Part shown: piece after piece, positions 6,989-61,600 of the stretch
Position numbering within the stretch: position 1 is the stretch's first letter
Layout of the letters: each line of letters opens with the position of its first letter
IMG/VR virus record: IMGVR_UViG_3300047189_000056
Coordinates: 1 to 64,000 of that record
Direction: 5' to 3' (one strand)
Length of the DNA: 64,000 bases
Source of the DNA: a virus
Position numbers and translations under genes: made by a program
The notes under the pieces: model-generated
The model's database searches: none
Seen by the model: the letters and a program-made list of their open reading frames with translations, nothing else
Told to the model about the DNA's origin: nothing

Positions 6989-7408
6989 TCATTCCCCACC
7001 TTTGCTTGTGATAGAAGGCGGAGAGGAGTTCTGATGTTTTTGATAATGTTCGTGATCACATTTTCTGCAATAGTGACTTAACCCATTCCAGCGGTTCCTG
7101 TTCCTTGAAAATTGTTCTTTAGGAAGGAATTGCTGGCAAGAGCAACACCAATTTGTATCTTGGTCTTTAAACTTTCTCCTAAATCCCCCATTCTTTTGAT
7201 GGTCGACAATATGCTGTCTTTTATCTTGAAGCAATAAATTCTCAATGTTATCATTCAAGGTATTCCTATCTATATGGTGAACAACTTCATTCGCCGAAAG
7301 TTTTCTGCCTAAATGCTTCTCTATTATTAGTCTGGAGTTATATTGATATTTATTTTTTCCAATGTGTCTCAATCTTCTTGGTTGTCCTCTTACAATATTT
7401 ATATACAT
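6989..7408 (-). CDS. HNH homing endonuclease
   Basis: About 139 aa from ATG 7408 (a TTG lies further up at 7426). The HNH core is 'LSANEVVHHIDRNTLNDNIENLLL', with catalytic HH and N, followed by a zinc-finger-like 'WCCSCQQFL...YCRKC' module. Such enzymes nick or cut DNA and spread their own gene. Inserted among small accessory genes. Confidence 0.88.
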   Translation of the reverse strand: MYINIVRGQPRRLRHIGKNKYQYNSRLIIEKHLGRKLSANEVVHHIDRNTLNDNIENLLLQDKRQHIVDHQKNGGFRRKFKDQDTNWCCSCQQFLPKEQFSRNRNRWNGLSHYCRKCDHEHYQKHQNSSPPSITSKGGE

Positions 7409-7800
7409 ACTTTCCGTTCCTTCCAATTAGTTCCGTTCCAAATTAATCCTTTCTCGTAGTGCCAAAAATGAGATAAAAGTTCAGATAATGTTTTACAATG
7501 ACACTCTTCCATTAAAGTCCAATTTCTTAACCTCCATATTAAATGGATTGCTTTCCCTAACTTTTTAAATATTTTAACTTCTGATTCAGCGAATAGATCG
7601 ACCCAATCATCTGAGGTGGGGAGCCAAATTGTGCTTGAAGATTTCCAGCCGTTGCCTCCTGCCCTTGACATCATTCTAATAATGGGTGGAAACCCTCCCC
7701 CTGATTGAACAGCATACCAATCTCCAAATGATAAAAACTTTCTCTCCTTCTGCACCGGAGATTCTTTCATCATGTCGATGTAGGTTGAGGTGAAAGTCAT
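7399..7800 (-). CDS. Trp-rich hypothetical protein
   Basis: A 133-aa protein with many aromatic residues ('WLPTSDDWVDLF', 'IHLIWRLRNWTLMEECHC'). It overlaps the HNH start by a few bases and the next upstream stop. I do not recognise the family; not a membrane protein. Confidence 0.55.
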   Translation of the reverse strand: MTFTSTYIDMMKESPVQKERKFLSFGDWYAVQSGGGFPPIIRMMSRAGGNGWKSSSTIWLPTSDDWVDLFAESEVKIFKKLGKAIHLIWRLRNWTLMEECHCKTLSELLSHFWHYEKGLIWNGTNWKERKVCI

Positions 7801-12557: not shown

Positions 12558-13070
12558 TTAAGGGTTGACGATTTGGTTTTTTCTTTGAGGAGCCAATCCT
12601 TTCTTTCGCATCTTATGATGAATTAGATCATGGTAACTTTGGTTACAGATGATAAGATTGCAATTACTATTATCTTTAGGATTTCTGTTGATATGATGAA
12701 CAATCTCGCCTTCTTTTAGTGGTCTTCCTAAAACGTTTGAAGCAATTAATCTATGTTCTCCTATATATCCCTCTAAACTTGCGTTTGGATGATCAGGCAT
12801 TTTGATTAAAATATGTCCTCTGCCATCATAAGTATAACCACCTTTCCAATAGCCATTTAAAGAACCTATTAATCTAATACCATACATAGGATTCCCAGAA
12901 CCTTTTCTGCTTTCACTAAGTCTTTTTCTTCCTTCTTCTGACAAAAAACTTTTACCCTTGCTATATTTATACCAACAATTTTGAGAACAAAATCTGCCCC
13001 CTCCTCTTTTAATTTCTGACATCCATGTTTGAAAAGGATTCCCACAAATTTGGCATACACATTGAACCAT
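12558..13070 (-). CDS. HNH homing endonuclease
   Basis: A 170-aa protein. N-terminal zinc finger 'CQICGNPFQTW...FCSQNC', a NUMOD-type DNA-binding repeat region ('GNPMYG', 'NGYWKGG'), then the HNH core 'GEHRLIASNVLGRPLKEGE', 'IVHHINRNPKDN' and 'NLIICNQSYHDLIH'. Free-standing homing enzyme. Confidence 0.88.
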   Translation of the reverse strand: MVQCVCQICGNPFQTWMSEIKRGGGRFCSQNCWYKYSKGKSFLSEEGRKRLSESRKGSGNPMYGIRLIGSLNGYWKGGYTYDGRGHILIKMPDHPNASLEGYIGEHRLIASNVLGRPLKEGEIVHHINRNPKDNSNCNLIICNQSYHDLIHHKMRKKGLAPQRKNQIVNP

Positions 13071-13346: not shown

Positions 13347-14030
13347 TCACACCTCCACCGGCTCGATAGACTTTTCCTTCAGTTTATTTCTTTCTTTCAC
13401 TCTATGATATGAATCCCTTTTTACTTTCAAATACCATTCGTGGTTTAGGACCCTATAATTTTTCATCCTAATGGAAGTACAGATCGGGCAATATCGTTTT
13501 GCACTTCCATTATAAGGATAAGAAACTAATTCGTGACCATTGTCACAATGAGTTTTTCTTGCATTTTGAGCTGGAAAACCATTCCCACGCAAAAGATTCT
13601 CTCGCATAGTTACTAATTCCATATGATCAGGATTTACACAACGAGGATTTCTACAAAGATGATCTATTGTAAGATTGGTTGGAATTTCCCCTTTAAGATA
13701 AGCATAAGACCACCTATGAGCATTAAATGTTTGTTGTTGCCCATTTTTTTTAATTCCAAAATTACCATAGCCCCCAGGCTTAATAGATGCTATCCAGTTC
13801 CAACATCCATTAATATCAATTCTTGCTTTTCTAAAAAATCTTTCTTCGGTTGACAATCTTGGAATAGTGGCAAGTGCCTTCCGTTGAGCAACTGTTTGCT
13901 TTCTACCAATTTTGAATGTACCTGGGTTGGGGTTTAAAGATTGGTATTTTGTATAGCAGGATTTTGAACAAAACGTTTTTCTCTTAGTACCAACATCTTG
14001 ATTACATTGTTTACATGGGCGTGGATTCAT
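13347..14030 (-). CDS. HNH endonuclease (HNH_3 type) with zinc fingers
   Basis: A 227-aa protein: N-terminal C4 finger ('CKQCNQDVG...FCSKSC'), then the HNH_3 domain 'GCWNWIASIKPGGYGNFGI', 'AHRWSYAYLKGEIP', 'TIDHLCRNPRCVNPDHMELVT', and a C-terminal 'CDNGHEL...YCPIC' finger. All catalytic residues are present. Typical selfish phage endonuclease. Confidence 0.9.
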   Translation of the reverse strand: MNPRPCKQCNQDVGTKRKTFCSKSCYTKYQSLNPNPGTFKIGRKQTVAQRKALATIPRLSTEERFFRKARIDINGCWNWIASIKPGGYGNFGIKKNGQQQTFNAHRWSYAYLKGEIPTNLTIDHLCRNPRCVNPDHMELVTMRENLLRGNGFPAQNARKTHCDNGHELVSYPYNGSAKRYCPICTSIRMKNYRVLNHEWYLKVKRDSYHRVKERNKLKEKSIEPVEV

Positions 14031-16213: not shown

Positions 16214-16498
16214 TTAGGATTTGGTAATGGATTTAAATATTTCGAGGAGGGATTTTCCGCCTTCGTAGATAGTTGCCGAGGAGTAAAAGTCAAACATGGT
16301 TTTCCCGCATTTATTTATCCAAAGTCTTATTCTTTCCTCTGTGAGAGGCAATTTACCCTTTTCAATTTCTGAAATTTTGCCTTTTCCTGTTCGAAGTCCC
16401 ATTAATCGGGCAAGTTCTTCTTGAGTCAAATCTGAATCAAGGCGTAATTGTTTAAGAACTTGACCCCATTTTCGGTTACGATGGATTTTTCTTGACAT
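16214..16498 (-). CDS. CI-like HTH_3 repressor
   Basis: Start at 16498 ('MSRKIHRNRKWGQVL'), giving 94 aa; a longer upstream frame crosses the promoter and is not credible. The HTH is 'LRLDSDLTQEELARLMGLRTGKGKISEIEKG' (Cro/CI family, helices about residues 17-47). There is no C-terminal cleavage or dimerisation domain, so it is smaller than lambda CI. Divergent from the Cro-like gene with shared operators, the classical lysogeny switch. Confidence 0.8.
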   Translation of the reverse strand: MSRKIHRNRKWGQVLKQLRLDSDLTQEELARLMGLRTGKGKISEIEKGKLPLTEERIRLWINKCGKTMFDFYSSATIYEGGKSLLEIFKSITKS

Positions 16499-16520
16499 TT
16501 CCTTTTCGATGTTATATAAA
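16492..16520 (+). promoter_or_regulatory. Rightward early promoter (PR-like)
   Basis: -35 TTGACA (16492-16497), exact 17-bp spacer, -10 TATAAA (16515-16520). Predicted start of transcription is about 16527, only two bases before the next ATG. Confidence 0.82.
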
Positions 16521-16529
16521 GTAGAACTA
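16509..16529. promoter_or_regulatory. Repressor operator, right
   Basis: Matches the left operator at 16 of 21 positions; the core is GTTATA / TAGAAC. It covers the -10 box and start of transcription of the rightward promoter and the upstream region of the repressor gene. Confidence 0.68.
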
Positions 16530-16750
16530 TGAAAATTCGGGATTTTTGCGAATTGCGAAAAAAAACATTGAAACAATTCTGTGATGAGAATGGCTATCGA
16601 TATGGGTATTTGAGACAGATTTCCTCTGGACATGTTCGGCCATCACCCGATCTTGCACTTCGGATTGAGAAAGATACCGAAGGGTTAGTAACAAGGTTGG
16701 AACTCCTGTATCCTTTACACAAAAGGGATACTCAAGAATCGTGCCAATAG
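16529..16750 (+). CDS. Cro-like small HTH protein
   Basis: A 73-aa protein, 'MKIRDFCELRKKTLKQFCDEN' then 'YGYLRQISSGHVRPSPDLALRIEKDTEG', a YdaS/Cro-type helix-turn-helix. There is no ribosome site, and the promoter places transcription start at the ATG, so the mRNA is probably leaderless. First gene of the rightward operon. Confidence 0.78.
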   Translation: MKIRDFCELRKKTLKQFCDENGYRYGYLRQISSGHVRPSPDLALRIEKDTEGLVTRLELLYPLHKRDTQESCQ

Positions 16751-17388: not shown

Positions 17389-17465
17389 TTTGAGACGAAA
17401 TGATCAACTTGACCTCTCCCATACCCAGTGATACCCTCCTTCTCATTCCAATCGAGGAGGGGGAT

Positions 17466-18506
17466 ATGAAAGGAAAAGTCTATTCACATGGCAAAGGCTT
17501 TAGGGTTTACTTTAAAGGGGAATGGTTTTCTCATGACGAATTTGGTAGGCCGCTTAAATCTAAGTTCTATGCTTATTCATTTCTCGAACATCTAAACGCT
17601 CTTTACGATCCGGATCCTGCTAAGAACCGTTATCATCCTTCAAAGTTCAAGAACAAGACGCCATATAAGCTTGATGAGGCGTTTGCTCTCTACCTTGATC
17701 GGAAGCAGACTGATTCCGGCTGGCAAAAGGCAAAGGAATGGATCTGGAAGAAATATTTCATGGTTTATTTCGCCAATCAAGACTTTCGAACAATCGATGA
17801 CGTCCAACTCCAGGCCTTTGTCAAATGGCTGGAGGGCAGGGACCTTAAGGGGAAGACAATCAAGAATATCCTGATGATGTTGCATGGATTTCTAAATTAC
17901 TTCAAACGTTCAATCAATATCTTTCCTCAATTCCCTTCAATTTCTTACCAGCAACCCCGGCCAAAGAAATTTACAGACAAAGAAATTGATCAAGTCTTTG
18001 AGTTCATCCAGGAGCAAGATAGGGGTTATTTCCTTTTTATCCGGTATTACGGAGTCCGTCCCGAGGAAGCCAGTGGGCTCCTTCGATCAGCTATTAACTG
18101 GGAAACCGGGGAGATCACCATTTCGACCGTCTTTGTCAATGGGCGCGTAAAGCCAAAAACCAAGACCATGAAGGAAAGGGGACTCCCGATCATCCCCGAG
18201 ATCGAACCCTATCTCAAATCAACCACTCTATCTACCTTCGTTTTTCAGATAGGGCGCCATCCCTACACCCGGCATGTTCGAGAGAGTCGGTGGAATAGGG
18301 CGATGAAACAGGCTGTACAAAAATACAGTGCTCGGGTAATGACTCTGCGGGATCTCCGATCGAGTGCAACAAGCCGATGGCTAAAGAAGGGGATGCTTAT
18401 CCAGGATGCAGCTCAGTTGCTCGGAAATTCCCCTGAAATAATCAGGAAGCATTACAGCGACCAGACGGAAAATAAGGTCGTGGAAATAGTGAGAGGAAAG
18501 ACTTGA
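17466..18506 (+). CDS. int: Tyrosine site-specific integrase
   Basis: An open frame from 17400, but ATG 17466 has a far better ribosome site (GAGGAGGGGG) and is preferred; 346 aa from there. An N-terminal arm and SAM-like core-binding domain ('YFANQDFRTIDDVQLQAFVKWLEG') precede the catalytic domain: Arg in 'RYYGVRPEEASGLL', Lys in 'KPKTKTMKERG', then 'LRDLRSSATSRWL', 'LLGNSPEIIRKHYS' with the tyrosine. The usual H of the HxxR box is R, and the usual H of 'LGHS' is N. It integrates at the tRNA-derived site just downstream. Confidence 0.9.
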   Translation: MKGKVYSHGKGFRVYFKGEWFSHDEFGRPLKSKFYAYSFLEHLNALYDPDPAKNRYHPSKFKNKTPYKLDEAFALYLDRKQTDSGWQKAKEWIWKKYFMVYFANQDFRTIDDVQLQAFVKWLEGRDLKGKTIKNILMMLHGFLNYFKRSINIFPQFPSISYQQPRPKKFTDKEIDQVFEFIQEQDRGYFLFIRYYGVRPEEASGLLRSAINWETGEITISTVFVNGRVKPKTKTMKERGLPIIPEIEPYLKSTTLSTFVFQIGRHPYTRHVRESRWNRAMKQAVQKYSARVMTLRDLRSSATSRWLKKGMLIQDAAQLLGNSPEIIRKHYSDQTENKVVEIVRGKT

Positions 18507-19472: not shown

Positions 19473-19898
19473 ATGGACTACTTAGAGAAGTTGAAAGATC
19501 CAAGATGGCAAAAGAAAAGGCTTGAAATTCTTCAACGGGATCAATGGACTTGCAAATCGTGTGGCGAAAAAGAGAAAACACTTCATGTTCATCATTTATT
19601 TTATTTTAAAGACACTGATCCTTGGGATTTAAATGATGGGTATTTAATCACACTGTGCGAAAACTGCCATTCTGAAAAGAATGATGATATTTTCGGATAT
19701 TTGCATGGAGATACGATTGCAGAAATTGGGAATACTCTAAATCAAATTTGGCATTCTGGATTTGATCTTTTTGATTTGGTTTCTCTTCAAGAAATCTTTT
19801 TTTATACCAAGCGAGAACAAAAAGGACAAATAAAGTCTGGAACCTTAAAACTGAAATATTTCCACCCAAGGGGGATACTTCCAAAAAACAGAATATGA
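19473..19898 (+). CDS. HNH endonuclease
   Basis: 141 aa; strong ribosome site GGAGG. Core 'QRDQWTCKSCGEKEKTLHVHHLFYF', 'LITLCENCHSEKND', a standard HNH with zinc cysteines. Overlaps the replication gene start by four bases. The bases before it hold a tiny frame starting 'GKAPVMEEL', possibly a leftover of a gene interrupted by the insertion. Confidence 0.86.
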   Translation: MDYLEKLKDPRWQKKRLEILQRDQWTCKSCGEKEKTLHVHHLFYFKDTDPWDLNDGYLITLCENCHSEKNDDIFGYLHGDTIAEIGNTLNQIWHSGFDLFDLVSLQEIFFYTKREQKGQIKSGTLKLKYFHPRGILPKNRI

Positions 19899-20936: not shown

Positions 20937-21064
20937 TGAATAACCGCGCTAAAGGTTTAATCTTCTGTCGCGAGGTTAAGAAGATTCTCGAAGCGATCGG
21001 TCATCAGGTCGAGGGACCCGGATATACCACGGCATTCTTTGGAGGGAAAACCAATGCGATTTAA
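20936..21064 (+). pseudogene. Truncated first copy of the PD-(D/E)XK gene
   Basis: ATG 20936 overlaps the loader stop. The 42-aa product (MNNRAKGLIFCREVKKILEA...) matches the first 42 residues of the protein at 21538 (MDNRAKGFVFCNEVKKILEG...) closely, then stops exactly where the catalytic half should begin. An HNH gene starts within its last codons. It is a 5' remnant left by the insertion. Confidence 0.8.
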
Positions 21065-21545
21065 AAAAGAAATATCAACAGGGAAAATTATTGATTTGTA
21101 CCGATCTGGTTTGTCTTGTTCTAAAATTGGCAAATTAGTTGGAATGACCCCAGAAGGAATTAGGTACAGACTTATTGCAAATGGGAAGAAACTTAGAACA
21201 GCACGAGAGGCTACGGGCAGGGCCGACCGTGCACCCAATTGGAAGGGTGGGAAAATAAAAATGGCCCAAGGATACACGGGTCTCTATTTCCCTCATCATT
21301 ATCGAGCAAATCAAAATGGTTATGTATTAGAGCATATTGTTGTTTGGGAAAACTATCATAATAAAAAACTTCCTAAAGGTTGGATAATTCATCATTTAAA
21401 TGGAGTTAGAACAGATAATAGAATTAATAATTTGGCTGCTATGCCAGTCAACAAACATGATCGATTGGTTAATCCCTATATTAAAAGAATCAATCAACTT
21501 GAAAAAGAAGTAACTCAGTTAAGACAGGGAAAATTATTTGGATAA
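21054..21545 (+). CDS. HNH homing endonuclease inserted in a nuclease gene
   Basis: Start at 21054, seven bases after GGAGGG; an ATG at 21039 is less likely. 163 aa. N-terminal HTH ('TGKIIDLYRSGLSCSKIGKLVGMTPEGIRYRL', Sigma-70 region 4 / Rv2175c-like), then the HNH core 'LEHIVVWENYHNKKLPKGW' and 'IIHHLNGVRTDNRINNLAAMP'. Coiled tail with LEKEVTQLRQGKLF. It separates the truncated and full copies of the flanking gene. Confidence 0.88.
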   Translation: MRFKKEISTGKIIDLYRSGLSCSKIGKLVGMTPEGIRYRLIANGKKLRTAREATGRADRAPNWKGGKIKMAQGYTGLYFPHHYRANQNGYVLEHIVVWENYHNKKLPKGWIIHHLNGVRTDNRINNLAAMPVNKHDRLVNPYIKRINQLEKEVTQLRQGKLFG

Positions 21546-22394: not shown

Positions 22395-22416
22395 TGAAAA
22401 AGAGTTGCTTCATGGG
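22388..22416. terminator. Hairpin between converging genes
   Basis: CCCATGA pairs with TCATGGG around a 15-base loop. It lies exactly between the stops of the + gene (22394) and - gene (22417). Lacks a long T-run, so terminator strength is uncertain. Confidence 0.5.
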
Positions 22417-22608
22417 TTAACCTTCTACCCTTTCAATTGTCCATTGATTCATTATCATCATTTCTTTAATATCCTCATCGGTAGGATTCCAGTCTTTGAA
22501 TTTATGACAAGCCGATTCTCGAAGGGTCCAGGGGTTAACTTCTCCAAATCTGACCCTCGCATCCTCAATTACAAGATTCATATCTCTTTGTTTTGTGTCC
22601 CATTCCAT
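22417..22608 (-). CDS. 63-aa hypothetical protein
   Basis: ATG 22608 after GGAAAGGAGGATATTTAG. Hydrophilic, one 'MNLVIEDARVRFGEVNPWTLR' helix. Distal gene of the sigma-54 operon. Confidence 0.55.
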   Translation of the reverse strand: MEWDTKQRDMNLVIEDARVRFGEVNPWTLRESACHKFKDWNPTDEDIKEMMIMNQWTIERVEG

Positions 22609-22725
22609 CTAAATATCCTCCTTTCCATATATCCGATTATGCAATCGTTTGAAATGCTCCTCCTCATACCACATAGCACGGACGAGGAGATTGTGAGACC
22701 AGGCATAACGAAAGCGACGATTCAT
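22609..22725 (-). CDS. 38-aa basic protein
   Basis: An open frame from ATG 22725 to TAG 22609, ending directly before the next start. 'MNRRFRYAWSHNLLVRAMWYEEEHFKRL', amphipathic and aromatic. No strong ribosome site but tight spacing with both neighbours. Confidence 0.5.
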   Translation of the reverse strand: MNRRFRYAWSHNLLVRAMWYEEEHFKRLHNRIYGKEDI

Positions 22726-22729
22726 ATTA

Positions 22730-22879
22730 TTAGTCTTTCTGTAATTCTTCGAGGACTTGAGTTAAATTAAAATGCTCTTCACATGATGAACAGATAATTT
22801 CTATAGTTCCATCTAAAAATCTTTTAATGAAGAATTTATCCTCTGAGCAATCGCATTGAAATGTTATTGGGTAACCCAT
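22730..22879 (-). CDS. 49-aa zinc-finger-like protein
   Basis: Start 22879 chosen for AAAGGAG nine bases upstream. 'FQCDCSEDKFFIKRFLDG' and 'IICSSCEEHFNL' give a four-cysteine zinc site. Confidence 0.6.
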   Translation of the reverse strand: MGYPITFQCDCSEDKFFIKRFLDGTIEIICSSCEEHFNLTQVLEELQKD

Positions 22880-22895
22880 TTTCCCTTTCTCCTTT

Positions 22896-23123
22896 CTATT
22901 CATACCAATGAACAACGATCCGGTTATTATCCTCATTTGTCCTGCCAACTGCATTAGCAATCATCTGCTCTACCCTTTGCCGATCCTGTTCCCAGATAGG
23001 TTTAGGAATATAGGCTTTGATCCATCCTGATCCTGTACCTATTCCATGTGTAACCTTTACCCTATAACCTAATCCCTTTAACGCTTCTTTTACGATCCTT
23101 GTTTCATCCATTTTACGACTCAT
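22896..23123 (-). CDS. 75-aa hypothetical protein
   Basis: 'ETRIVKEALKGLGYRVKVTHGIGTGSGWIKAYIP' and 'DRQRVEQMIANAVGR' suggest an alpha/beta double-stranded-RNA-like or ferredoxin-like fold. Similar small proteins are common in phages; function unknown. Confidence 0.6.
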   Translation of the reverse strand: MSRKMDETRIVKEALKGLGYRVKVTHGIGTGSGWIKAYIPKPIWEQDRQRVEQMIANAVGRTNEDNNRIVVHWYE

Positions 23124-23159
23124 CTTTGCCGCTCCTTTCTGCCTAAAGGGTGTTAGGGG

Positions 23160-23375
23160 TTAGTCGGAAAATCTCAATCCCTTTAAAATTCTATAAGATA
23201 CACGAGAATAAGCCTTTTTTGACAATTCTTCCTTAATATGGTTTATGAACGATTCAATTTCTCCTATATTCTTGAAACTATACCAATCATGTTTTCTGAA
23301 ACTAAATGGATTCCGGCCCTCAGCTACATTAGGATAAAAACCACTTAACTTTTTACCTCCGTAATTTAGTGTCAT
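23160..23375 (-). CDS. 71-aa hypothetical protein
   Basis: Ribosome site AAAGGAGAAAG. 'YSFKNIGEIESFINHIKEELSKKAYSRVSYRILK'. Unrecognised. Confidence 0.55.
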   Translation of the reverse strand: MTLNYGGKKLSGFYPNVAEGRNPFSFRKHDWYSFKNIGEIESFINHIKEELSKKAYSRVSYRILKGLRFSD

Positions 23376-23432
23376 CTTCTTTCTCCTTTCTGCCCAGCGG
23401 GAACAAAAAGGGCATCCAATAGATTTGAGGCC

Positions 23433-23728
23433 CTAATCGTAGGAATTGTTTAGTTCCCGGATCGCTTCTTCCAATTCAGTTAATAAATTATTTGGGCATT
23501 CTGAATATAACTGGTCCCACCATTCCTTAAGATGCAATTTGCTATGTTCTGAGTTGGTTAATGGTTTAAGATTAGAAATGTCATTATCAAAAGGATTGCC
23601 ATTGATATGATGGAAAAAAACTGACTCGGCAATTTATAACCTAACACTTTTTCTAACTTTTTTCTTGCAATTTGCCTTGATCTGCAGGGACTGATAAATC
23701 CGTCTTTTGGCGGTCTTCCCATTCCCAT
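23433..23728 (-). pseudogene. Frameshifted HNH endonuclease
   Basis: ATG 23728 with AGGAG upstream encodes 'MGMGRPPKDGFISPCRSRQIARKKLEKVLGYKL'. The frame then breaks near 23630-23640, and the other frame continues 'AESVFFHHINGNPFDNDISNLKPLTNSEH' to TAG 23433. Together they form a complete small HNH enzyme, so one indel has broken it (or the assembly has an error at the 7-A run at 23614-23620). Confidence 0.75.
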
Positions 23729-23768
23729 CTTTTAACTCCTATAAAAGAAAAGGGTATTCAACACAGTT

Positions 23769-23854
23769 GGAGCGGTTAAGGTGGCTTTTAAGCCAATTAA
23801 CCCTGTGCCAAATACCCTTAGATTTAATGCTAAATAAAAAACCACCTTCCGCTC
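23769..23854 (-). repeat. Interrupted inverted repeat in the operon leader
   Basis: GGAGCGGttAAGGTGGcTTTT at 23769-23789 is the reverse complement, with two small gaps, of the segment 23837-23854. A second hairpin (GGCTTTTAAGCC with flanking GGTTAA/TTAACC) sits inside. The leftward transcript from the sigma-54 promoter would fold into it. Confidence 0.6.
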
Positions 23855-23869
23855 CTTGAGCTTAATATC

Positions 23870-23885
23870 TGCAAACCCTGTGCCA
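23870..23885 (-). promoter_or_regulatory. Sigma-54 (RpoN) promoter
   Basis: Reading the minus strand: TGGCAC, five bases AGGGT, then TTGCA, a perfect -24/-12 match with correct spacing. Start of transcription is predicted near 23859, leftward into the small operon 23728-22417. A degenerate copy (TGGCACAGGGTTAATT) lies at 23795-23810. Confidence 0.72.
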
Positions 23886-24251
23886 AAATCTAACCGATTG
23901 AAATCATTAGACTGTTCATAAAAGAATACAGAGGTTTTTGAAATCTTTGCATACTAAAACAGCTAAGTATCTGAAATGATTAAGTCAATTTTTGGCATGG
24001 CTTTAACAAAAAACGGCACAAACCATTCTTAAATGATTCACGCGCACGTGAGAGCGTACCCGAATATTATGTAACCATTTGCAACCACCTAATATACTTA
24101 GCCTCTGCTGATTTCTCTTGACAACATACTATATCTTGGTTCTTAATTATCTCCAACACCCTAAGAGTTAAAAAAAAGAACGAGGCACAGAATATGAGAT
24201 AAAGCATATCATTCCCGAAGTGATCTACATATACTCCCAAGGAGGAAAAGT

Positions 24252-24467
24252 ATGGTTGGCTCAACACAGTTAATCATCGGTAAACGAGAAATCGCTAAAT
24301 ACTTTCCTTACTCATACTCAACCTTCGATCAAAACAAATGGCCCCAGCTCAAAAAGGCTAAGATCATATTTCAAACTTACATAGGTAAAATCCCACATCG
24401 GAAGCTCTGCCAATACACTCATCTCAGCTTGATTCAAAAATTCCTTCGTGAAAACCCGAATTTCTAA
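24252..24467 (+). CDS. Small DNA-binding-like protein before the terminase
   Basis: ATG after AAGGAGGAAAAGT. 71 aa: 'IGKREIAKYFPYSYSTFDQNKWPQLKKAKIIFQ' resembles a winged helix-turn-helix of the excisionase/terminase-small-subunit type. Located 95 bases before TerS, so a late regulator or packaging helper is possible. Confidence 0.6.
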   Translation: MVGSTQLIIGKREIAKYFPYSYSTFDQNKWPQLKKAKIIFQTYIGKIPHRKLCQYTHLSLIQKFLRENPNF

Positions 24468-24526
24468 GGCCTATCTAAATATTAATCCTCTAACACCCTA
24501 TTAGCTAAATATAGCAAGATGGGGTC

Positions 24527-24554
24527 TTGACAAAGCTAAATGTAGTGGTAGATT
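24527..24554 (+). promoter_or_regulatory. Candidate late promoter before TerS
   Basis: -35 TTGACA (24527-24532), 16-bp spacer, -10 TAGATT (24549-24554). Direct repeats AGCTAAATATAG and AGCTAAATGTAG lie around it (near 24503 and 24535), possible activator sites. Confidence 0.55.
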
Positions 24555-27564: not shown

Positions 27565-27776
27565 AGATCATAGAAGAAAAAGAATTTGAGACGGTATCTG
27601 AATCTTGGAATGAATATCGTCTTAATGATGGGACAATGGTGAAAGCTAAGGTAATTGTTAGTGGGGTTCAGTTGACTGACCAGAGGGATCAATTTGGTGA
27701 TCCTGTTTATAATATGGTCTGGCATGTAATTCATAGAGTTATGCCGAGTTTGAATAAAGGAGAAGGAAGTGCCTGA
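27561..27776 (+). CDS. 71-aa beta-rich hypothetical protein
   Basis: ATG 27561 overlaps the previous stop. 'EYRLNDGTMVKAKVIVSGVQLTDQRDQFGDPVYNMVWHVIHRV' reads like a small beta barrel of the phage neck/accessory type. Unrecognised. Confidence 0.58.
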   Translation: MKIIEEKEFETVSESWNEYRLNDGTMVKAKVIVSGVQLTDQRDQFGDPVYNMVWHVIHRVMPSLNKGEGSA

Positions 27777-28017
27777 ACCAGAAACTAAATTCTGTCGTCT
27801 CTGTGGAAAGAATAAGCCAGTCGGTGAGTTTGTTGAAGTGCCTTTGGCTCGTTTCGAGAACAGTGTTTACATCCAGAGTGTATGCAAATTATGCAACACA
27901 GTTGTTCACAATATTAGAACCATAGTCAGTGAGGCGATGAAGAAGAAACAAGAGGAACAGGAGAAGCCTCGGATTATTGTTCCGTCGCCAAGAGTTCTAC
28001 GAAGCATTAGAAATTAA
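27769..28017 (+). CDS. 82-aa zinc-binding protein
   Basis: GTG start after AAGGAG. Four cysteines: 'CRLCGKNKPVGEFVEV' and 'CKLCNTVV', the pattern used as N-terminal zinc domain by HNH and other phage proteins, but no HNH core follows. C-terminal helix rich in K, E, Q. Confidence 0.58.
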   Translation: MPEPETKFCRLCGKNKPVGEFVEVPLARFENSVYIQSVCKLCNTVVHNIRTIVSEAMKKKQEEQEKPRIIVPSPRVLRSIRN

Positions 28018-28019
28018 CC

Positions 28020-28099
28020 TTTCGGGTCTGCAGCCCGGAACCCCAGTTTACAAGAAGAGCGCCAAATCCGTGCACGGCGGGTTTCGGCGCTTTTCTTTT
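28020..28099 (+). ncRNA. Two-hairpin RNA element, copy 1
   Basis: Hairpin 1: seven pairs (TTTCGGG/CCCGGAA) closing the loop TCTGCAG. Linker with AGTTTA. Hairpin 2: a 5-bp base (GCGCC/GGCGC), one bulged C on the 3' side, six more pairs (AAATCC/GGGTTT), a loop containing GTGCACGG, then TTTTCTTTT. The same plan, loop, linker motif, bulge and 39-base spacing recur at 55518-55595. At least a terminator; probably a conserved structured leader. Confidence 0.72.
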
Positions 28100-28124
28100 G
28101 GGGTAAGGAGAAAAGGAGAAAGTG

Positions 28125-28331
28125 ATGAGTAAGAAAACGGTTAATAGGGCACCCAAAACCGATAAGGATTGGGAGGCTGAGAACGACTTTTCTACTCTCG
28201 AACGTGCGGAGGAAGTTCGTTCTTCCTCTTCCCGTTTCAAATCAGCTCGCAAGATGGGGATGCTTAAACTCAAGGCTACCCGACGGGCTCTCGGAAAGAT
28301 GAGCAAAAAGGGAATAAAGATAGACATTTGA
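28125..28331 (+). CDS. 68-aa basic hypothetical protein
   Basis: ATG 28125 after AAAGGAG. Rich in K, R and S ('VNRAPKTDKDWEAENDFSTLERAEEV', 'KSARKMGML'). The N-terminal pattern resembles small proteins found next to podovirus portals. Function unknown. Confidence 0.6.
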   Translation: MSKKTVNRAPKTDKDWEAENDFSTLERAEEVRSSSSRFKSARKMGMLKLKATRRALGKMSKKGIKIDI

Positions 28332-28338
28332 GGGGAAT

Positions 28339-30294
28339 ATGGCGCAAGAAGATTTACTACCTGCCGTTGAGCAGGTTGCAGGAAATAATCCTACGGTTTC
28401 CGGTATAACCTCTGAATACGTCACTCCCACAAAGGTCTGGGGATGGTATAGAGAGGGAAGAGAAGCTTCTTCTAATTTCCGAATACAGGCAAATACTGAT
28501 TGCAATTATTACGACAACGAGCAATGGACGGAAGAAGAGAAGCAGGAACTCGATAATCGTGGTCAGCCCGCCATTGTCATCAACCGCATCAAACCCACGA
28601 TTGATCTTGTTACTGGCACTGAGACTAAGATTAGAGTTGACTTCAAGGCCGCTCCCCGGAAGAGCAACGGTACCCTTGATGCTGGCATCGCTACCGAATG
28701 CATTAAGTACGTTATGGATGCCAATCAGGGGGAGTATATTATCTCCGACATCTTCGAAGGCCAGATCAAAGCCGGATGGGATTTTGTTGAACTTTCCAAG
28801 AATGATGATCCATTTAAAGAATTGATCCAGCTCGCAAAGGTTCCCCGTAATGATCTCATTTGGGATCCCTATGCCAAGGAATATGATCTCAGTGACGGCA
28901 AATATTTTATCCGTCCGAAATGGATGGAACTTGAGGATGCCGAAGCTAAATTTCCTAAATTCAAATCTCTTCTTGAGATGGTTGTCTCTGATGATGAGGT
29001 TGAATCCTTTCGCGAATCTCCGCATCATGGCACTGAAGATCAACCCGATAGACCTGGCGTTCGTCTCTGGGATAAGAACATTTCCTCTACCGAATGGGTG
29101 GATAAGTCCCGGAAGAGAGTAAAACCCATCGAATGCTGGTATAAGGTCCCTATTGAAACCCATTTAGTTGATAACTACCTCACTGGTGAAGTCGAGGAAC
29201 TTAATCCTGCAAAGATTCAAGAAGTCCTTTCTACTCCCGGAGCCACAATTACTAAAGTGTTTATCAAAAAAGTCCGGCTCTGTATCATTGCAGGTCCTTA
29301 CCTTCTCGCTGATAACTGGTCACCTTATCGTCACAATGAGTACCCCTTTATCCCATGGTGGTGCTTCCTGAAAGACAAAGACCGCTCTCCCTATGGACTG
29401 ATCCGGCAAATGCGGGATCCGCAAGATGAGATTAATAAGCGCCGGTCTAAGGCCATGCATCTTCTTAACTCTACCCAGATTATTGCCACCTCAGATGCTA
29501 TTGATAAAAAAGAGAACGATTGGAAAAAGGTGGCTGATCAGATAGGAGATCCACAGGGGATTATTCTTCTTAATGCCACTGCCGGGGCAAACTCTAAGTT
29601 TGAAATCCGAAATCCTATGGCCATTGTAGAACAACAATATAAATTCGAAGAGGAAGCCAAGGGTGAAATTGAGGAAGCTGGGGTCAACCGCGAACTTAAG
29701 GGTATGGAAACTAATGCTTCCTCTGGTCGTGCGATCATTGCCCGCCAAGTCCAAGGCAATACCATGTTGGGTAAGCCCTTTCAGAACTATCGGCGCTCCC
29801 GTCAACTTCTCGGCCAGCGCATATGGTCAATGATTCAACAATTTTGGACACGGCCAAAAGTTCTTAGAATTACTAACAAGACAGGTGAACACGATTTTAT
29901 TGAACTCAATATGCCGGTAAATCTCAACGGTAAAGTTTACATTAAGAATGATATCACTCAGGCTAAGGTTGATATCGTTATTGACGAGCAGGCCTTTAAT
30001 GCCACGGTTCGCCAAACCCTGGCCGATGAGATGTTCCTCCTTATCTCCAAACTTCCTCCTGAAATTGGCATTCTTATGCTCGATGATGTCATTGATTTTC
30101 TTGATCTTCCTAATAAGGACAAACTCATGCAGAAGATCCAGATGGTTCAGGGAGTTATGCAGCAGCAAATGGGAACGAAGCAGGAGAATGAGAGAATGGT
30201 GGCAGAAGCGACAAAGGCTAAATCTGAAACTAATACAGTCAACCGTTCCTCCGAAGAATCGGCTATGCGGGGAGGACTCCCCGGGAGTGCTTAA
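28339..30294 (+). CDS. Portal protein, P22-like
   Basis: 651 aa, the usual size of P22-type portals. 'ANTDCNYYDNEQWTEEEKQELDNRGQPAIVINRIKP' and 'LVTGTETKIRVDFKAAPR' open the fold; 'EYPFIPWWCFLKDKDRSPYGLIRQMRDPQDEINKRRSKA' is the conserved stem/clip region. The portal forms the dodecameric DNA gate at one head vertex and docks the terminase. C-terminal helices 'QKIQMVQGVMQQQMG' would make the barrel. Confidence 0.9.
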   Translation: MAQEDLLPAVEQVAGNNPTVSGITSEYVTPTKVWGWYREGREASSNFRIQANTDCNYYDNEQWTEEEKQELDNRGQPAIVINRIKPTIDLVTGTETKIRVDFKAAPRKSNGTLDAGIATECIKYVMDANQGEYIISDIFEGQIKAGWDFVELSKNDDPFKELIQLAKVPRNDLIWDPYAKEYDLSDGKYFIRPKWMELEDAEAKFPKFKSLLEMVVSDDEVESFRESPHHGTEDQPDRPGVRLWDKNISSTEWVDKSRKRVKPIECWYKVPIETHLVDNYLTGEVEELNPAKIQEVLSTPGATITKVFIKKVRLCIIAGPYLLADNWSPYRHNEYPFIPWWCFLKDKDRSPYGLIRQMRDPQDEINKRRSKAMHLLNSTQIIATSDAIDKKENDWKKVADQIGDPQGIILLNATAGANSKFEIRNPMAIVEQQYKFEEEAKGEIEEAGVNRELKGMETNASSGRAIIARQVQGNTMLGKPFQNYRRSRQLLGQRIWSMIQQFWTRPKVLRITNKTGEHDFIELNMPVNLNGKVYIKNDITQAKVDIVIDEQAFNATVRQTLADEMFLLISKLPPEIGILMLDDVIDFLDLPNKDKLMQKIQMVQGVMQQQMGTKQENERMVAEATKAKSETNTVNRSSEESAMRGGLPGSA

Positions 30295-55517: not shown

Positions 55518-55595
55518 AAACCGGTCTGCAGCCGGATTTCCAAAGTTTAAATAAAACCTACCGTGCATATGGCATGCGTAGGCTTTTTGTTTTTA
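55518..55595 (+). ncRNA. Two-hairpin RNA element, copy 2
   Basis: Hairpin 1 CCGG-TCTGCAG-CCGG with extra A-T pairs; linker with AAGTTTA; hairpin 2 with base CCTAC/GTAGG, bulged C on the 3' side, CGTGC/GCATG, loop ATATG; then CTTTTTGTTTTT. Loop, linker, bulge position and 39-base spacing match copy 1 at 28020-28099. It lies right before the 2615-aa fibre gene. Confidence 0.72.
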
Positions 55596-55618: not shown

Positions 55619-58600
55619 ATGAAAAAGCTGTTTGTTTTACTATTTACTTTAGTCCTGATAAATTGCCCGATATATGCTGAAGCTGCAAAGCTTCTTATTT
55701 CATCCTCGGGCAATGCGACAATGATTCAAGGTAGGAATGTTGAATCAGCGGCTCCTACGGATGCGGATTGCCTTATGTGGAATGATGCAGCAAGCGAATG
55801 GCAGGCTGCGGCTTGTCCAGGAGCTGGAACAGGAGCCCCGACTGATGCCGAATATGTAACTTTTGCAGCGGTTGGTGCCTTAAGTGCAGAACGGGTGCTG
55901 ACGGAAGCCACGGGTATTGACCTCTCGACGGCTATTGCTGGTCAAATCAGGGTTTCGGTTAATACGACTGAAATAGGGACAACGACATGGGGTTCTGGTG
56001 GGGCATCATACCTTTGGACTTACAATGTTTCAGGTACTACCGATCCTGTTTTAACCGTGAGTGATGGTGTTCTTAATCTATCGGCAGGAACACTCCAACA
56101 GGCAGGGGTAAAGGTTGCATTGGGAATAGCGACCTCGACCGACAATCGCCTTGTGAGATGGGATTCTACGGGTGGCCAACAGCTTCAGACTTCGGCAATC
56201 ACGGTTGACGATACGGGGAATACCTCCGGGATGGGAACCCTCGGGGTTGGAGCAATCACAGGCGGGACATACAACAAGATCACCATCACGACTCCTGCAA
56301 CCGGGGCGACCCTGACATTGGCAGAAGGAAGCAACCTTATTACGGCTGGAGCTTTTGCAACCACGTTCACTACGACGGATACCACTGGAGTCACCTTGCC
56401 TACTTCTGGAACCCTTTACGGAACGGCAACGGGGTCAATTACCTCGGCTCAGTTGGCAACATCTCTCTCTAACGAGACAGGGACAGGGGTTGCGGTATTT
56501 GGAACATCTCCGACTTTTACTACCACCATCCTTCCTTCTGCGGCTGGAGCAACGGCAATAGGCACGGAACTTCTTCCATTCTCAAGTATCTTTATCGGGG
56601 ACGAGGCAAGCAAAAGTGTAAAACTTGTCAACACGGCTGCTGCTGCAGATGTAGTTCTGACTTTGCCTTCAACTACAGGGACACTAGCACTGATCGATTC
56701 TCAGGTATTTACCACTTACATAGAATCTCCCTATATCATTCTCGGGTCTGCTGCAACGGCGGCTGATGCAGGGGCTATACGGTTGCCCAACGCTACGGGA
56801 AATATAGCATGGGAGAAAGCCACGGCAGGGACAGACACGACCCTTGGGCTTAATGCCACAGACGATATGGTTCTTGCCCTTGTTGCCGCAGACGACTTGT
56901 TCCAGATTACCACTGGAAACCTGAAAATAGGGGCGGGGACACAGACGCAGACCCTTGACGGTGCAGATGCCTACATTACTGGGTTCTTGGAGGTGGATGG
57001 CATAATTTATGCCGATGGTGGGGTAACGACTACTACCCTGACGGCAGGGTCAGCGAACTCCCTCACTCTTGGTACTGACTCGGCAGGTGGAGTACCCGCC
57101 ATTGGTTCTGTCATTTTCCACAATGCTACCAACACGAACCATTTTACAATTACTTCCGGGACGAGTGGCGCTGCAATCGGATGGACCCTTCCAACGGCGG
57201 CTCCGGCAGGAAACGATTATTTGGTCAAATCCTCAACTGCTGGGGTTCTTGGTTATACTGATCCTGCGACTTTCCAAGGTGTTCTAACTAACTCAGCAGG
57301 TCTTCTTGGAGCCCTGAGTGATGAAGTTGGAACTGGATATGCAGTTTTCAATACAGCTCCAACCTTTGTAACATCGATTACACCAACAGCAGCAGGAGCT
57401 ACAACCATAGGAACAACTGCTCTTGAGTGGGGAAATGTCTATCTGACGGATAGTGCAGTGATCTATGGTCAAGCCGACCAAAGTGCCACTCTCACAAGTT
57501 CAGCCTCTCTCTGGACAGCAAATAACTTTGGGGTAACTACTCAGTTTAAACTTCCTTCTTCTGATGCAGATCCTACGGCAACAGCAGGATATTTAAGGCA
57601 TGATTCAACCATTACTAACTTCACAGGTGGTGGTCTGGTCTACTACAACGGTGCCGCAATTAAACAATTAGTTGATATGACCACAGCCACGGCACAGGCG
57701 TGTACGGAGGCCCAAGTAATTGTCTATGATGCCACCGCTGATCTATGGAAGTGTGCGGATGCCCCTGCCGCAGATGCCGACATTGTGGCAATTGCCGCCC
57801 TCACTGTGGCACAGGGCCATTTTATTGTGGGTAATGCAGATCCAGTCTGGTCTCTTTCGACTTATCACTTACCCATTGTAGCCTGCACGGAGAATCAGAT
57901 ATTAAAAGCAGATGCGAGCGGTAATTTCTTATGTGGGGCTGATGCGGACACTGGCGGAGCAACAGCATGGAATGCTATTGGGGATGCAGCTGCTCCAGGG
58001 TCTATCGACTTTGTTACTCACCAACAGACTATTACGGGACAGTTAAATTCTGCCGGTGCCATGCTCACCATGACCAATACCGTTACTGATCTAGGTGCTG
58101 ATGTTTCTCTTATAGACTTTGGCTTTAAGGATAGCGATGATGCAAATGCGTTTGTTTTCAGAGTGTACGATACCGATGCTACTTCAACAATTCTCGCAAG
58201 CATGACTGGCCTTGGAGCATTAAGTGTAGCGTCAATCACGGCAACGGGAGCCGTTGTTCCCGGGACGGCTGATACCTATACTCTTGGTAGTGCTACAGCG
58301 GAATGGTCAGACCTCTTCCTTGGAGATGGTGCAGTAATCTACGGTCAGATAAATCAGAGTGCCACCCTTACCTCCTCTGCTTCTTTATGGACTGCTAACA
58401 ACTTTGCCATAACTGGCTATCTTGCACTTGGAGCTGATCCTGCCGATACTGGATCTATTAGGCTTCCTAATGCTGGTTATATTTATTCCGAAGCAGATGT
58501 GGCCGGAACTGATATTTCAGTTATAGGGGTGGATTCTGCAGAAATTATTCAAATTGGTGCCTCGGGTGCATCTGGAGTAACAATAACTCCAGCATTGACA

Positions 58601-61600
58601 GTCACAGGTCACGTTACCCTTGAAGCCATCACGAGTACTGGGGCAACTGGCACAGGGAAACTTGTATTTGATACCGCTCCGGTCTTCGTAACCAGTATTG
58701 AAGCACCATTTCTTATTCTTGGAACAACTGCTACGGCTGCGGATGCTGGTGCAATTAGATTACCAAATGCAGCCTATATCATGGCAGAAGCCGACACAGC
58801 GGGAACTGATATATCTATTATAGGAGTAGACTCTGCAGAGATTATTCAAATAGGAGCTTCTGGGGCAAGTGGTGTGACTATTACACCTGCCCTAACAGTC
58901 ACGGGACATCTTACTTTTGAAAGCATCACTAGCACAGGCGCAACCGGAACAGGGAAATTAGTTTTTGACACAGCGCCAGTTTTTACAACTAGCATTGAAG
59001 CTCCATTTTTAGTTCTTGGAACAGCCACTACAGCCGCAGATACCGGAGCAATTAGGCTCCCGAATGCGTCATATATCTTCTCTGAGGCTGCACCTGACGG
59101 AACAGATATTTCGGTAATCGGTGTCGATTCCGGTGAGATTATTCAGATAGGTGCAAGTGGTGCAAGTGCAGTTACCATTACTCCTGCTACTACTATCACT
59201 GGAGCATTAACTTTATCCAGTACAGTCAACAAGGTAACAATTACTCCACCGGCCTCGGCGGCCACCCTTACTCTTGTGGATGGATCAAGTCTTATTACTG
59301 TGGGGGCTTATGCTGTTACATTGACAGCAACGGGAACAACAGGGGTAACACTTCCGACTTCTGGAACGCTTTTAAATAATACATTGGCAGATGGATATAT
59401 CTATGTTGGAAGTGTAACCACCAATGTAGCTACCGCAAGGTTAATGTCAGGGGATGTCACTATTAGTAACACAGGAGTTACGGCGATCGGAGCTGATAAA
59501 GTAAATGCTACCCATATCGATTGGGGTACTGGAACAAACCAGATTGATATTGATGATATTCCTGATAGTGCAACATATCAGAAGGTACTTGCCGATGATG
59601 TGGATACTGCCGGTCATGTCAATAGATTGTATGACTCAGATGGTGTTGGGTATATCACGATAACTGGTTTATCGGTAGCAAGGGCTATTACCCTCGTTGA
59701 TGCCGCACAGACCCTCGTGAACCTTGCTTCTAACCAGATATTTACCGGGACTAATACTTTTCAGACCGTACAATACTTTGGGGATGCCTCGAATGCTGGA
59801 ACTTTCAGGGTTTATGATGGGAGTTCCAACTACACAACCGTGGGATTCCCGGCGGCGGCAGGAAATATGACCTTCAATCTTCCAATTACCAATGGAACCA
59901 GTGGGAATTTCTTGCAAACAGATGGAAGCGGAAATACTTCATGGACTATAACAGGGATTGCTACAGGTGCAGGAGATTGTACGGGTGGAGCTTGCCTTGA
60001 TGGTACGAGCGATGGTGGGACATGGATTAAATTCTATGATGCACAGGGAGCAACCCAACTGATCGGGGGAGATACGGCCGGTGTGGTGGTTCTTACCTTA
60101 CCAACTACAACCTCAACTCTCATGGGTACAGGTTTCAGTAACGGGGATGGTCTTATTTTCGGCGACACCTATCCTCCAGATGCTGCTGGGGAGATTGGAT
60201 ATTCTGGTGGAGTTCTTGCTTATTATGATGGAACAGGTTCAAGAACAGTTATGGCTGAGGCTCGTGCAAGTGGGGGGTTATTATTTGGAGACTCAACTCC
60301 TGATACGGAAGGCGAGATCGGATATGCTTCGGATGTACTCTCATATTGGGGAACCTCTGCTACGAGAAGTGTTGCAGCACTCGAAAGGGCACAAACTTTC
60401 ACGGCTAACAATGTGTTCGGTGATGCCGATACTGACACTCTCACCCTTCGATCTATGCTAATTGGAGGGAATTCAAGGGAGGTCCAGATCAATGCTGGGA
60501 CTCGGACGGCTCCAACTTATCCATCTGCAGCTCCAACACAGGATCTTTATGTGAAGGGAAATGTAGAGGTAGCGGGAACTATCTATGGAGCCGGTTTTAC
60601 TGGGAGTGTGGGGACAGAAGGCCAGAGGGGAATCACCTTAACAAGCAACAATGCTCTAACACCTACGGCAGATCAGATATATTTTGTGCTTGATGGACTT
60701 CACTTTTCAGAGGCAGGAGCAGAAAAACATCCAATGAAATTGGAGGATGCACAGACAGCTACTGGACTCAAAATCTTTGAAGCCGGTATTTATCTTGGGG
60801 ATACGGATACAACGACGGTATTCAAATTATCTGATGGAAGTACCAATTACGTGACAATAGCGGTTCCGGCTATAGCCGCCGATTATACTCTAACCCTTCC
60901 TACGACAGATGGAAATGCTAGCCAGTATCTTAAGACGGACGGCAGTGGAACTCTATCATGGGATTCACCCACGGCTACAGCAGCAGGATCAGATACACAG
61001 GTTCAGTTTAATGATGGTGGTTCGGCTCTTGGTGGAGATAGCGGTTTTACCTTCAATAAGACCACCAATGCTTTGACCCTTGGTGCGAATGCCGCAGGTG
61101 GTACTCTCGTTCTTTACAACGAACTTGGGGTGACTGATTACACGGTCACAATTGCACCCCACGCCTCTCAGGCCGCGAATGCCACGATTACCTTACCGGC
61201 GGCTACCGCTACTCTCATCGGGACGGGTGCGAATACCTTTACCGGTGCTCAGACGCTAAAGGCAGGATCAATTGGAGTGGGTGGAGCCCCCCTCTACTTC
61301 ACGAGTGGCACGAACTTAACATCTGCGGCAGTAGGTGCAATGGAGTTCGACGGCACCTACCTTTATTTCTCTCCATCCACCACCCGCTATTCCATTCCCT
61401 TGGCACTTGCAGCGGCACCCCTCAACTTCACAACGGGGGGGACTACGGCCCGCCTCATTACCTTGCCTGATGCCGCCATTACTGTGGCTCGTATCGATGC
61501 TGGCCAGACATTCACGGGTATTCAGGCCATGACTTCTCCTGACCTAACTACCAGTGTGACGACAACCTCAACTTCATTCACCGCCTTTGCTGGGGCAACA

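Follow-up and report, generated by a model that had tools for sequence, protein, structure and literature searches.

Palindrome-tipped two-hairpin RNA leaders, probably conditional terminators, precede virion structural genes in environmental phages

The DNA analyzed here, a 64,000-nucleotide stretch (the window) of the 64,540-bp IMG/VR virus record IMGVR_UViG_3300047189_000056, carries two small elements, 27 kb apart, each of which is predicted to fold into two successive hairpins ending in a U-tract. One (copy A) lies in front of a small gene and the portal gene and the other (copy B) in front of a giant fibre-like gene. The locus hence raises the question of whether the two copies represent a conserved functional RNA, of the terminator-attenuator or antitermination type as was originally predicted, and if so, what such an RNA would do for the virion genes that follow it.

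The phage that carries them is apparently temperate, since it encodes, besides an exonuclease VIII-like protein and a replication initiator, the following two products (all by PHROGs annotation of the window proteins):

16214-16633, repressor-like protein
17400-18506, integrase

Close relatives by portal protein were not found, the best matches (in Sinorhizobium phage PBC5, Burkholderia Lessievirus phages, and Stx-converting phages) being ≤35% identical. The window also has at least five HNH endonuclease-like genes (6989-7426, 12558-13070, 13347-14030, 19473-19898, and 21039-21545), possibly homing endonucleases and unusually numerous for a 64-kb phage, and a weak endonuclease match was obtained for 27769-28017, directly 5′ of copy A. 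Positions 22400-24550, where the early/replication genes give way to the late genes, contain short ORFs only and are a likely place for the late control region and late promoter.

The two copies and the genes that follow them have these parts, all on the plus strand:

28021-28039 (+), copy A hairpin 1, stem UUCGGG(U)/GCCCGGA with the 7-nt loop U-CUGCAG at 28027-28033 (sequence, MFE, family alignments, pair counts)
28059-28090 (+), copy A hairpin 2, predicted intrinsic terminator, stem GCGCC...GGCGC with a single C bulge on the 3′ side (sequence, MFE)
28068-28077 (+), copy A hairpin-2 tip, perfect palindrome CCGTGCACGG
28091-28099 (+), copy A U-tract, TTTTCTTTT (sequence)
28122-28331 (+), 69-aa ORF directly 3′ of copy A, followed by the portal gene; SD at about 28114-28119
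28339-30294 (+), portal protein gene (phrog_156), 3′ of copy A (annotation)
55521-55535 (+), copy B hairpin 1, stem CCGG(U)/GCCGG with the 7-nt loop U-CUGCAG at 55525-55531 (sequence, MFE, family alignment, pair counts)
55557-55582 (+), copy B hairpin 2, predicted terminator, stem CCTAC...GTAGG with a bulged C (sequence, MFE)
55584-55594 (+), copy B U-tract, TTTTTGTTTTT (sequence)
55619-63466 (+), giant fibre-like gene 3′ of copy B, a 2630-aa ORF; ATG at 55619, SD GGAGG at about 55609

An 82-aa ORF stops 7 nt before the core of copy A, and 22 nt separate the end of the copy A U-tract from the start of the 69-aa ORF; in the case of copy B, a 128-aa ORF stops 29 nt before the core. Much of what had been described for the pair was found again in the sequence: both copies are where they had been placed (28020-28099 and 55518-55595), they have the identical loop TCTGCAG on hairpin 1 and a U-tract after hairpin 2, and they are followed by the genes named. 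The 5-bp base of hairpin 2 with its single bulged C on the 3′ side was seen in both MFE folds, and the 39 nt that had been counted between hairpin starts agree with hairpin 2 beginning 34 nt past GGTC in both copies. Two further motifs thought to be part of the common fine structure did not hold up so well. The linker motif AGTTTA is indeed present in both copies, but at 20 versus 21 nt from GGTC, and it is not conserved in the other members described below; CCGTGCA is likewise present in the 5′ arm of both second hairpins, but at a different depth (offset 43 versus 38 from GGTC). Neither is a family feature, and the occurrence of AGTTTA in both copies is probably a coincidence. Nor can the different stems of hairpin 2 (GCGCC/GGCGC versus CCTAC/GTAGG) be taken as covariation, since any two terminators would show likewise.

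Folding z-scores were −5.8 and −2.8 for the two copies against dinucleotide shuffles. The pair alone is weak evidence: the local alignment score between the copies (22) was equaled by 27 of 3,000 dinucleotide-shuffled pairs, and other parts of the window score up to 21 against either copy, one point below, so that the similarity is by itself unexceptional. The significance of the observation comes instead from a wider family.

Pattern scans of IMG/VR yielded ten further distinct members (L094, L099, L100, L107, L111, L119, L129, L133, L292, and L296), or eleven with the divergent L120, on 15 contigs if the near-identical duplicates L103, L108, L121, and L301 are included. A first scan with the hairpin-1 core plus a T-rich tract gave 29 places, among which L094, L099, L100, L103, L107, L108, L111, L119, and L121 have the fold of the window copies; common to all of these are an A-rich leader, the sequence AAAATCC-N-GGTCTGCAGCC-N-GGTC, and a terminator hairpin that is long. 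The second scan contributed L129 and L133, and a pattern in which the loop was left open contributed L292 (loop CGATCG) and L296/L301 (loop CGTACG). The common anatomy consists of an A-rich leader, hairpin 1 (scheme CC-N-GG-U-(6-nt palindrome)-CC-N-GG), a linker, hairpin 2 as predicted intrinsic terminator, and then a virion gene. Hairpin 2 is G+C rich and directly followed by a U-tract in every member, as expected from sequence of an intrinsic (Rho-independent) terminator.

A covariance model (R1) built from twelve distinct sequences (alignment A3) scored the members at 68 to 92 bits, compared to ≤34 bits for background terminators and other sequence, and found one strong copy per relative's record versus two in the window. 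The covariance search, which had been suggested as a check on the original prediction, returned members that show compensating changes and have virion structural neighbors wherever these are annotated; nor are these plain terminators only, hairpin 1 and the palindromic tips being conserved as well. L120, from the first scan, was not retrieved by R1 and differs in the stem (GAAGG/CCUUC), and its probable membership rests on the same loop as in the other members of that scan, a palindromic terminator, and the gene order of the L107 group. The collection comprises few, environmental members, with many of the relatives represented by contig fragments.

Copies A and B belong to a previously uncatalogued phage-borne RNA family. 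Among the members tested, no Rfam 15 family was found at or above the gathering threshold (best about 17 bits, far below gathering), and among the results listed for the open-access literature searched, none described such a family, although absence is not thereby proven. AGTTTA was rejected as a family feature because the pattern GGTCTGCAGCC...AGTTTA matched six IMG/VR places, none of the six with the structure; the longer GGTCTGCAGCC...AGTTTA...CCGTGCA had no match. According to the covariance model, the element is absent from 85 loci of the window phage's portal relatives (≤35% identical), and blastn of the element regions against phages gave short chance matches only. In bacterial genome contigs, at least 119 pattern matches were obtained, which were chance-like; of the matches listed, none had the family anatomy. 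The matches in 395 Desulfobacterota and 296 Nitrospirota genomes were all nonpalindromic and attributable to chance, and no host was found there. Weak covariance-model matches in genomes (27 to 34 bits) were discarded as plain terminators or unrelated sequence.

The most informative feature of the family, unremarked in the original prediction, is the self-complementarity of its loops. Pair counts for hairpin 1 were made on 13 sequences, 10 of them distinct. Hairpin-1 and loop pairs are formed in 98.8% of cells, and the middle pair occurs as UA (four), AU (two), CG (two), and GC (two), with none broken. The covariation score was 0.497 versus a shuffled mean of 0.091, with 0 of 500 shuffles as high, a control that has known limits with related sequences but with which the slid versions (all ≤0.086) and the number of pair types agree. 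RNAalifold found double-sided compensation in 13 of 21 predicted pairs. The loop is a U plus CUGCAG, CGAUCG, or CGUACG, palindromic in each case, and if the palindrome positions are taken as pairs, complementarity is 100%, and two of the three pairs show double-sided changes. A self-complementary apical loop is thus kept through compensatory change, as would be expected from a kissing-loop homodimer. Each loop hexamer was computed to form a 6-bp self duplex of −6.4 to −7.7 kcal/mol, and the probability of a palindromic loop arising by chance in both variants retrieved by the loop-blind pattern is about 1/256. The GG-U-C...G-CC core is invariant and the A-rich 5′ flank conserved; owing to an additional T on its 5′ side, hairpin 1 lacks two-fold symmetry in all members.

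Hairpin 2 has a palindromic tip as well. A perfect palindrome of 10 to 12 nt is present there in 11 of 12 members, centered on GCGC, GGCC, GATC, TCGA, TGCA, or TATA, in a sequence otherwise freely variable; copy B has only the 6-nt CATATG. Among 25 other strong terminators of the same contigs, a palindrome of at least 10 nt was found in a single one, which is the antisense strand of a member, resulting in 11/12 versus 0/24 independent control terminators (Fisher P of about 2e-8). Because the center of a gapless palindrome is unpairable within one hairpin, its conservation would point to intermolecular pairing or to duplex DNA. On its 3′ side, hairpin 2 repeats the complement of the 5′ arm (e.g., ACGG then CGGU), so that the 5′ arm could pair with the near or the far copy. 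The distal (terminator) fold is 5.5 to 11.6 kcal/mol more stable than the proximal one, which disfavors hairpin 2 as a balanced two-state switch by itself.

In L292 and L296, pairing is possible between UGGGAUAAUCC past the U-tract and GGUUCCCA in the linker, and would compete with the 3′ side of hairpin 1; AATCC also occurs just 5′ of hairpin 1 in both.

Virion structural genes adjoin every copy that has annotated neighbors, in at least five different head-gene settings:

L107 group and L120: head-tail joiner phrog_5774 and lambda-type portal directly 3′
L094: scaffold phrog_673 and MCP phrog_1005 directly 3′
L129 (read in L355): MCP phrog_10 directly 3′
L292 and L296: 281/302-aa gene and MCP phrog_1357 directly 3′
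Window: 69-aa protein and portal phrog_156 (copy A); fibre-like gene (copy B)

With downstream modules this different, a single head protein binding its own leader would seem unlikely, and a common partner or RNA-only action is more likely than such control. Where a start with a ribosome site was identified, the gap from the U-tract to the gene is about 8 to 50 nt, too short for another promoter, and transcription of the virion genes must therefore pass hairpin 2; in several L107-type contigs the automatic start search gave no nearby downstream start. A sigma-70-type promoter, also unremarked before, precedes the element in six relatives (L099, L100, L107, L111, L119, and L133). It reads TTGACA-N17-TATCnC (TAACCC in L111), i.e., a consensus −35 and a weak −10, 50 to 51 nt 5′ of the GGTC core, with a predicted start about 15 nt before the hairpin-1 core. 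The perfect TTGACA −35 is absent from the remaining copies, which probably depend on upstream transcription. A Q-type late promoter was accordingly rejected as a general explanation, being confined to six copies.

In five of the promoter-bearing relatives (L099, L100, L107, L119, and L133), a direct repeat, GTTTAATAT ... GTTTAACAT, flanks the weak −10 about 10 to 40 nt before hairpin 1; the second repeat, GTTTAACAT, looks like a −10-like element located where the transcribed region begins, as in sigma-dependent pause sites. As judged from sequence only, L292 and L296/L301 have glycosyltransferase-like ORFs just 3′ of the major capsid gene, within the virion cluster.

The element thus has a conserved anatomy maintained with compensatory changes and stands directly before virion genes. 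The reading we prefer, and consider probable, is that the family is a cis-regulatory RNA that is part of the 5′ leader of virion structural genes and acts as a conditional intrinsic terminator (attenuator), in which hairpin 2 would terminate, readthrough would be regulated, and hairpin 1 would be the control site. RNA polymerase would enter from the upstream late genes or, in six relatives, from the adjoining promoter and would transcribe the A-rich leader with hairpin 1 and then hairpin 2. By default, hairpin 2 and its U-tract would stop transcription, and little head, portal, or fibre RNA would be made; once hairpin 1 was engaged, the terminator would be read through and the virion genes expressed. 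Engagement may be by an antitermination protein (boxB- or LoaP-like) or by a second copy of the same RNA. Both are plausible: the protein factor is the better precedented, and RNA pairing is favored by the palindromic tips, the conservation of this property in both tips making it a serious candidate. No recognizable N, Q, or NusG-like protein was found as trans-acting partner among the 30 window proteins (PHROGs). Overall, the original observation is real and broader than first noted, even if confirmed only partly in its details, and the notion of a conserved functional RNA of the terminator-attenuator/antitermination type is supported by a family with compensating changes beside virion genes.

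Other explanations were also considered. Intrinsic terminators within operons can tune gene stoichiometry, and the copies could be ordinary leaky terminators that set the proportions of packaging and virion gene products, with an incidental hairpin upstream. The A-tract and U-tract around hairpin 2 would suit this, but conservation is stronger in hairpin 1, which covaries, than in the terminator, and palindromic tips are missing from all 24 independent other terminators of these contigs; we regard the explanation as unlikely. Perfect palindromes are typical of dimer-binding DNA sites, and the conserved entity might then be DNA (a protein operator, a recombination site, or a cruciform) rather than RNA. 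However, the conserved asymmetric T/U in hairpin 1 disfavors a DNA operator, the half-sites vary freely, and the U-tract and ribosome site always follow on the same strand, making this very improbable. The element could also be a factor-free antitermination RNA like HK022 put, which binds the beta′ zinc-binding domain of RNA polymerase without factors; the folded element would then itself bind the polymerase and make it pass terminators. Its two hairpins, size of about 75 nt, and presence twice in one phage genome fit that model, which nevertheless is quite improbable in view of a second hairpin that itself has a U-tract and is highly variable in sequence, of the position before structural genes and not after early promoters, and of the lack of an Rfam match.

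Within the preferred attenuator reading, two submechanisms differ in what engages hairpin 1. An antitermination protein, either phage N/boxB-like or a NusG paralogue such as LoaP, may land on hairpin 1 and accompany RNA polymerase through hairpin 2, in which case the palindromic loop would be a by-product of recognition. The layout is that of LoaP leaders, in which the same hairpin precedes two operons (PMC12691694), and the invariant core together with the conserved A-rich 5′ flank suggests sequence-specific recognition. Protein recognition does not predict, however, that the loop interior changes wholly (UGCA, GAUC, GUAC) yet stays self-complementary, the UNCG loop of LoaP hairpins is absent, and the window proteins offer no recognized candidate, leaving this a tentative possibility. 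Alternatively, the RNA may sense itself: a short terminated leader would accumulate and kiss nascent leaders through its palindromic tips, with the hairpin-1 loop and hairpin-2 tip pairing between copies and altering the terminator outcome. Each of the three loop types of hairpin 1 is a perfectly palindromic hexamer, the hairpin-2 tips of 11 of 12 members are palindromic through a center unpairable within one hairpin, HIV-1 dimer initiation sites likewise use a few different palindromes (PMC5874298), and promoter-bearing copies would be expected to yield a short RNA. Against this, dimerization is a prediction from sequence, there are only three loop sequences, with CUGCAG in 8 of 10 distinct rows, and hairpin 2 of copy B has only a 6-nt palindrome, so that self-sensing is a doubtful, if conceivable, option. 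If true, virion gene output would track transcript or genome copy number. That a homodimerizing RNA switch sets the terminator and makes virion expression depend on how much phage transcript or DNA the cell contains, with no protein regulator, we hold to be rather unlikely.

To our knowledge, the way in which late and virion genes are turned on is understood for only a minority of uncultured phages. The element would mark one control point that can be recognized by sequence alone and is common to phages with nonhomologous capsid and portal genes; its occurrence in phages with nonhomologous head genes suggests a repeatedly borrowed module or a common host factor. A protein-bound hairpin 1 would be familiar in style, while kissing between RNA copies would be new, and palindromic tips acting in trans would constitute a protein-free concentration sensor.

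Known systems share one or another of these traits. Lambda nut (boxA-boxB) uses a small short-loop hairpin for antitermination, similar to hairpin 1, and lambda Q/pR′-tR′ has a promoter and then a terminator before the late genes, as in some family copies. In the family, as judged by eye, no boxA consensus is common to all members, and no N or Q was found among the 30 window proteins. A UUUAACA-like sequence is present in the promoter-proximal copies of L099, L100, L107, and L119 and not in window copies A and B, L094, L292, or L296. As copies exist without an adjacent promoter, a Q-type promoter-embedded DNA site is not required. The HK022 put RNAs are about 70 nt long, with two stem-loops, and occur in two copies (PMC9378689); putL and putR thus resemble the element in size, two-hairpin form, and, as in the window, two copies per phage genome, but they lie by early promoters, whereas the family stands before structural genes and has a U-tract at the second hairpin. 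As regards self-association, GOLLD and ROOL are natural bacterial RNAs forming homo-oligomeric complexes (PMC12286853); they are very large RNAs and not terminator leaders, unlike the family, for which homo-oligomerization is a candidate property. Retroviral dimer initiation sites have a self-complementary hexamer loop that occurs in several sequences, a few different palindromes prevailing in HIV-1 (PMC5874298), although they serve genome dimerization in other viruses whereas the family hairpin precedes a transcription terminator. In the LoaP-controlled dfn and mln leaders of Bacillus velezensis, a recognition hairpin with a UNCG loop is followed by an intrinsic terminator, which acts as a checkpoint, and then by the gene, the same hairpin occurring ahead of two operons (PMC12691694). 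LoaP systems have the UNCG-type loop and a NusG paralogue, and the family has the palindromic loops UCUGCAG, UCGAUCG, and UCGUACG and phage virion genes; no NusG paralogue was recognized among the 30 window proteins, and a host factor is possible. The plan of a recognition hairpin followed by a terminator is common to both.
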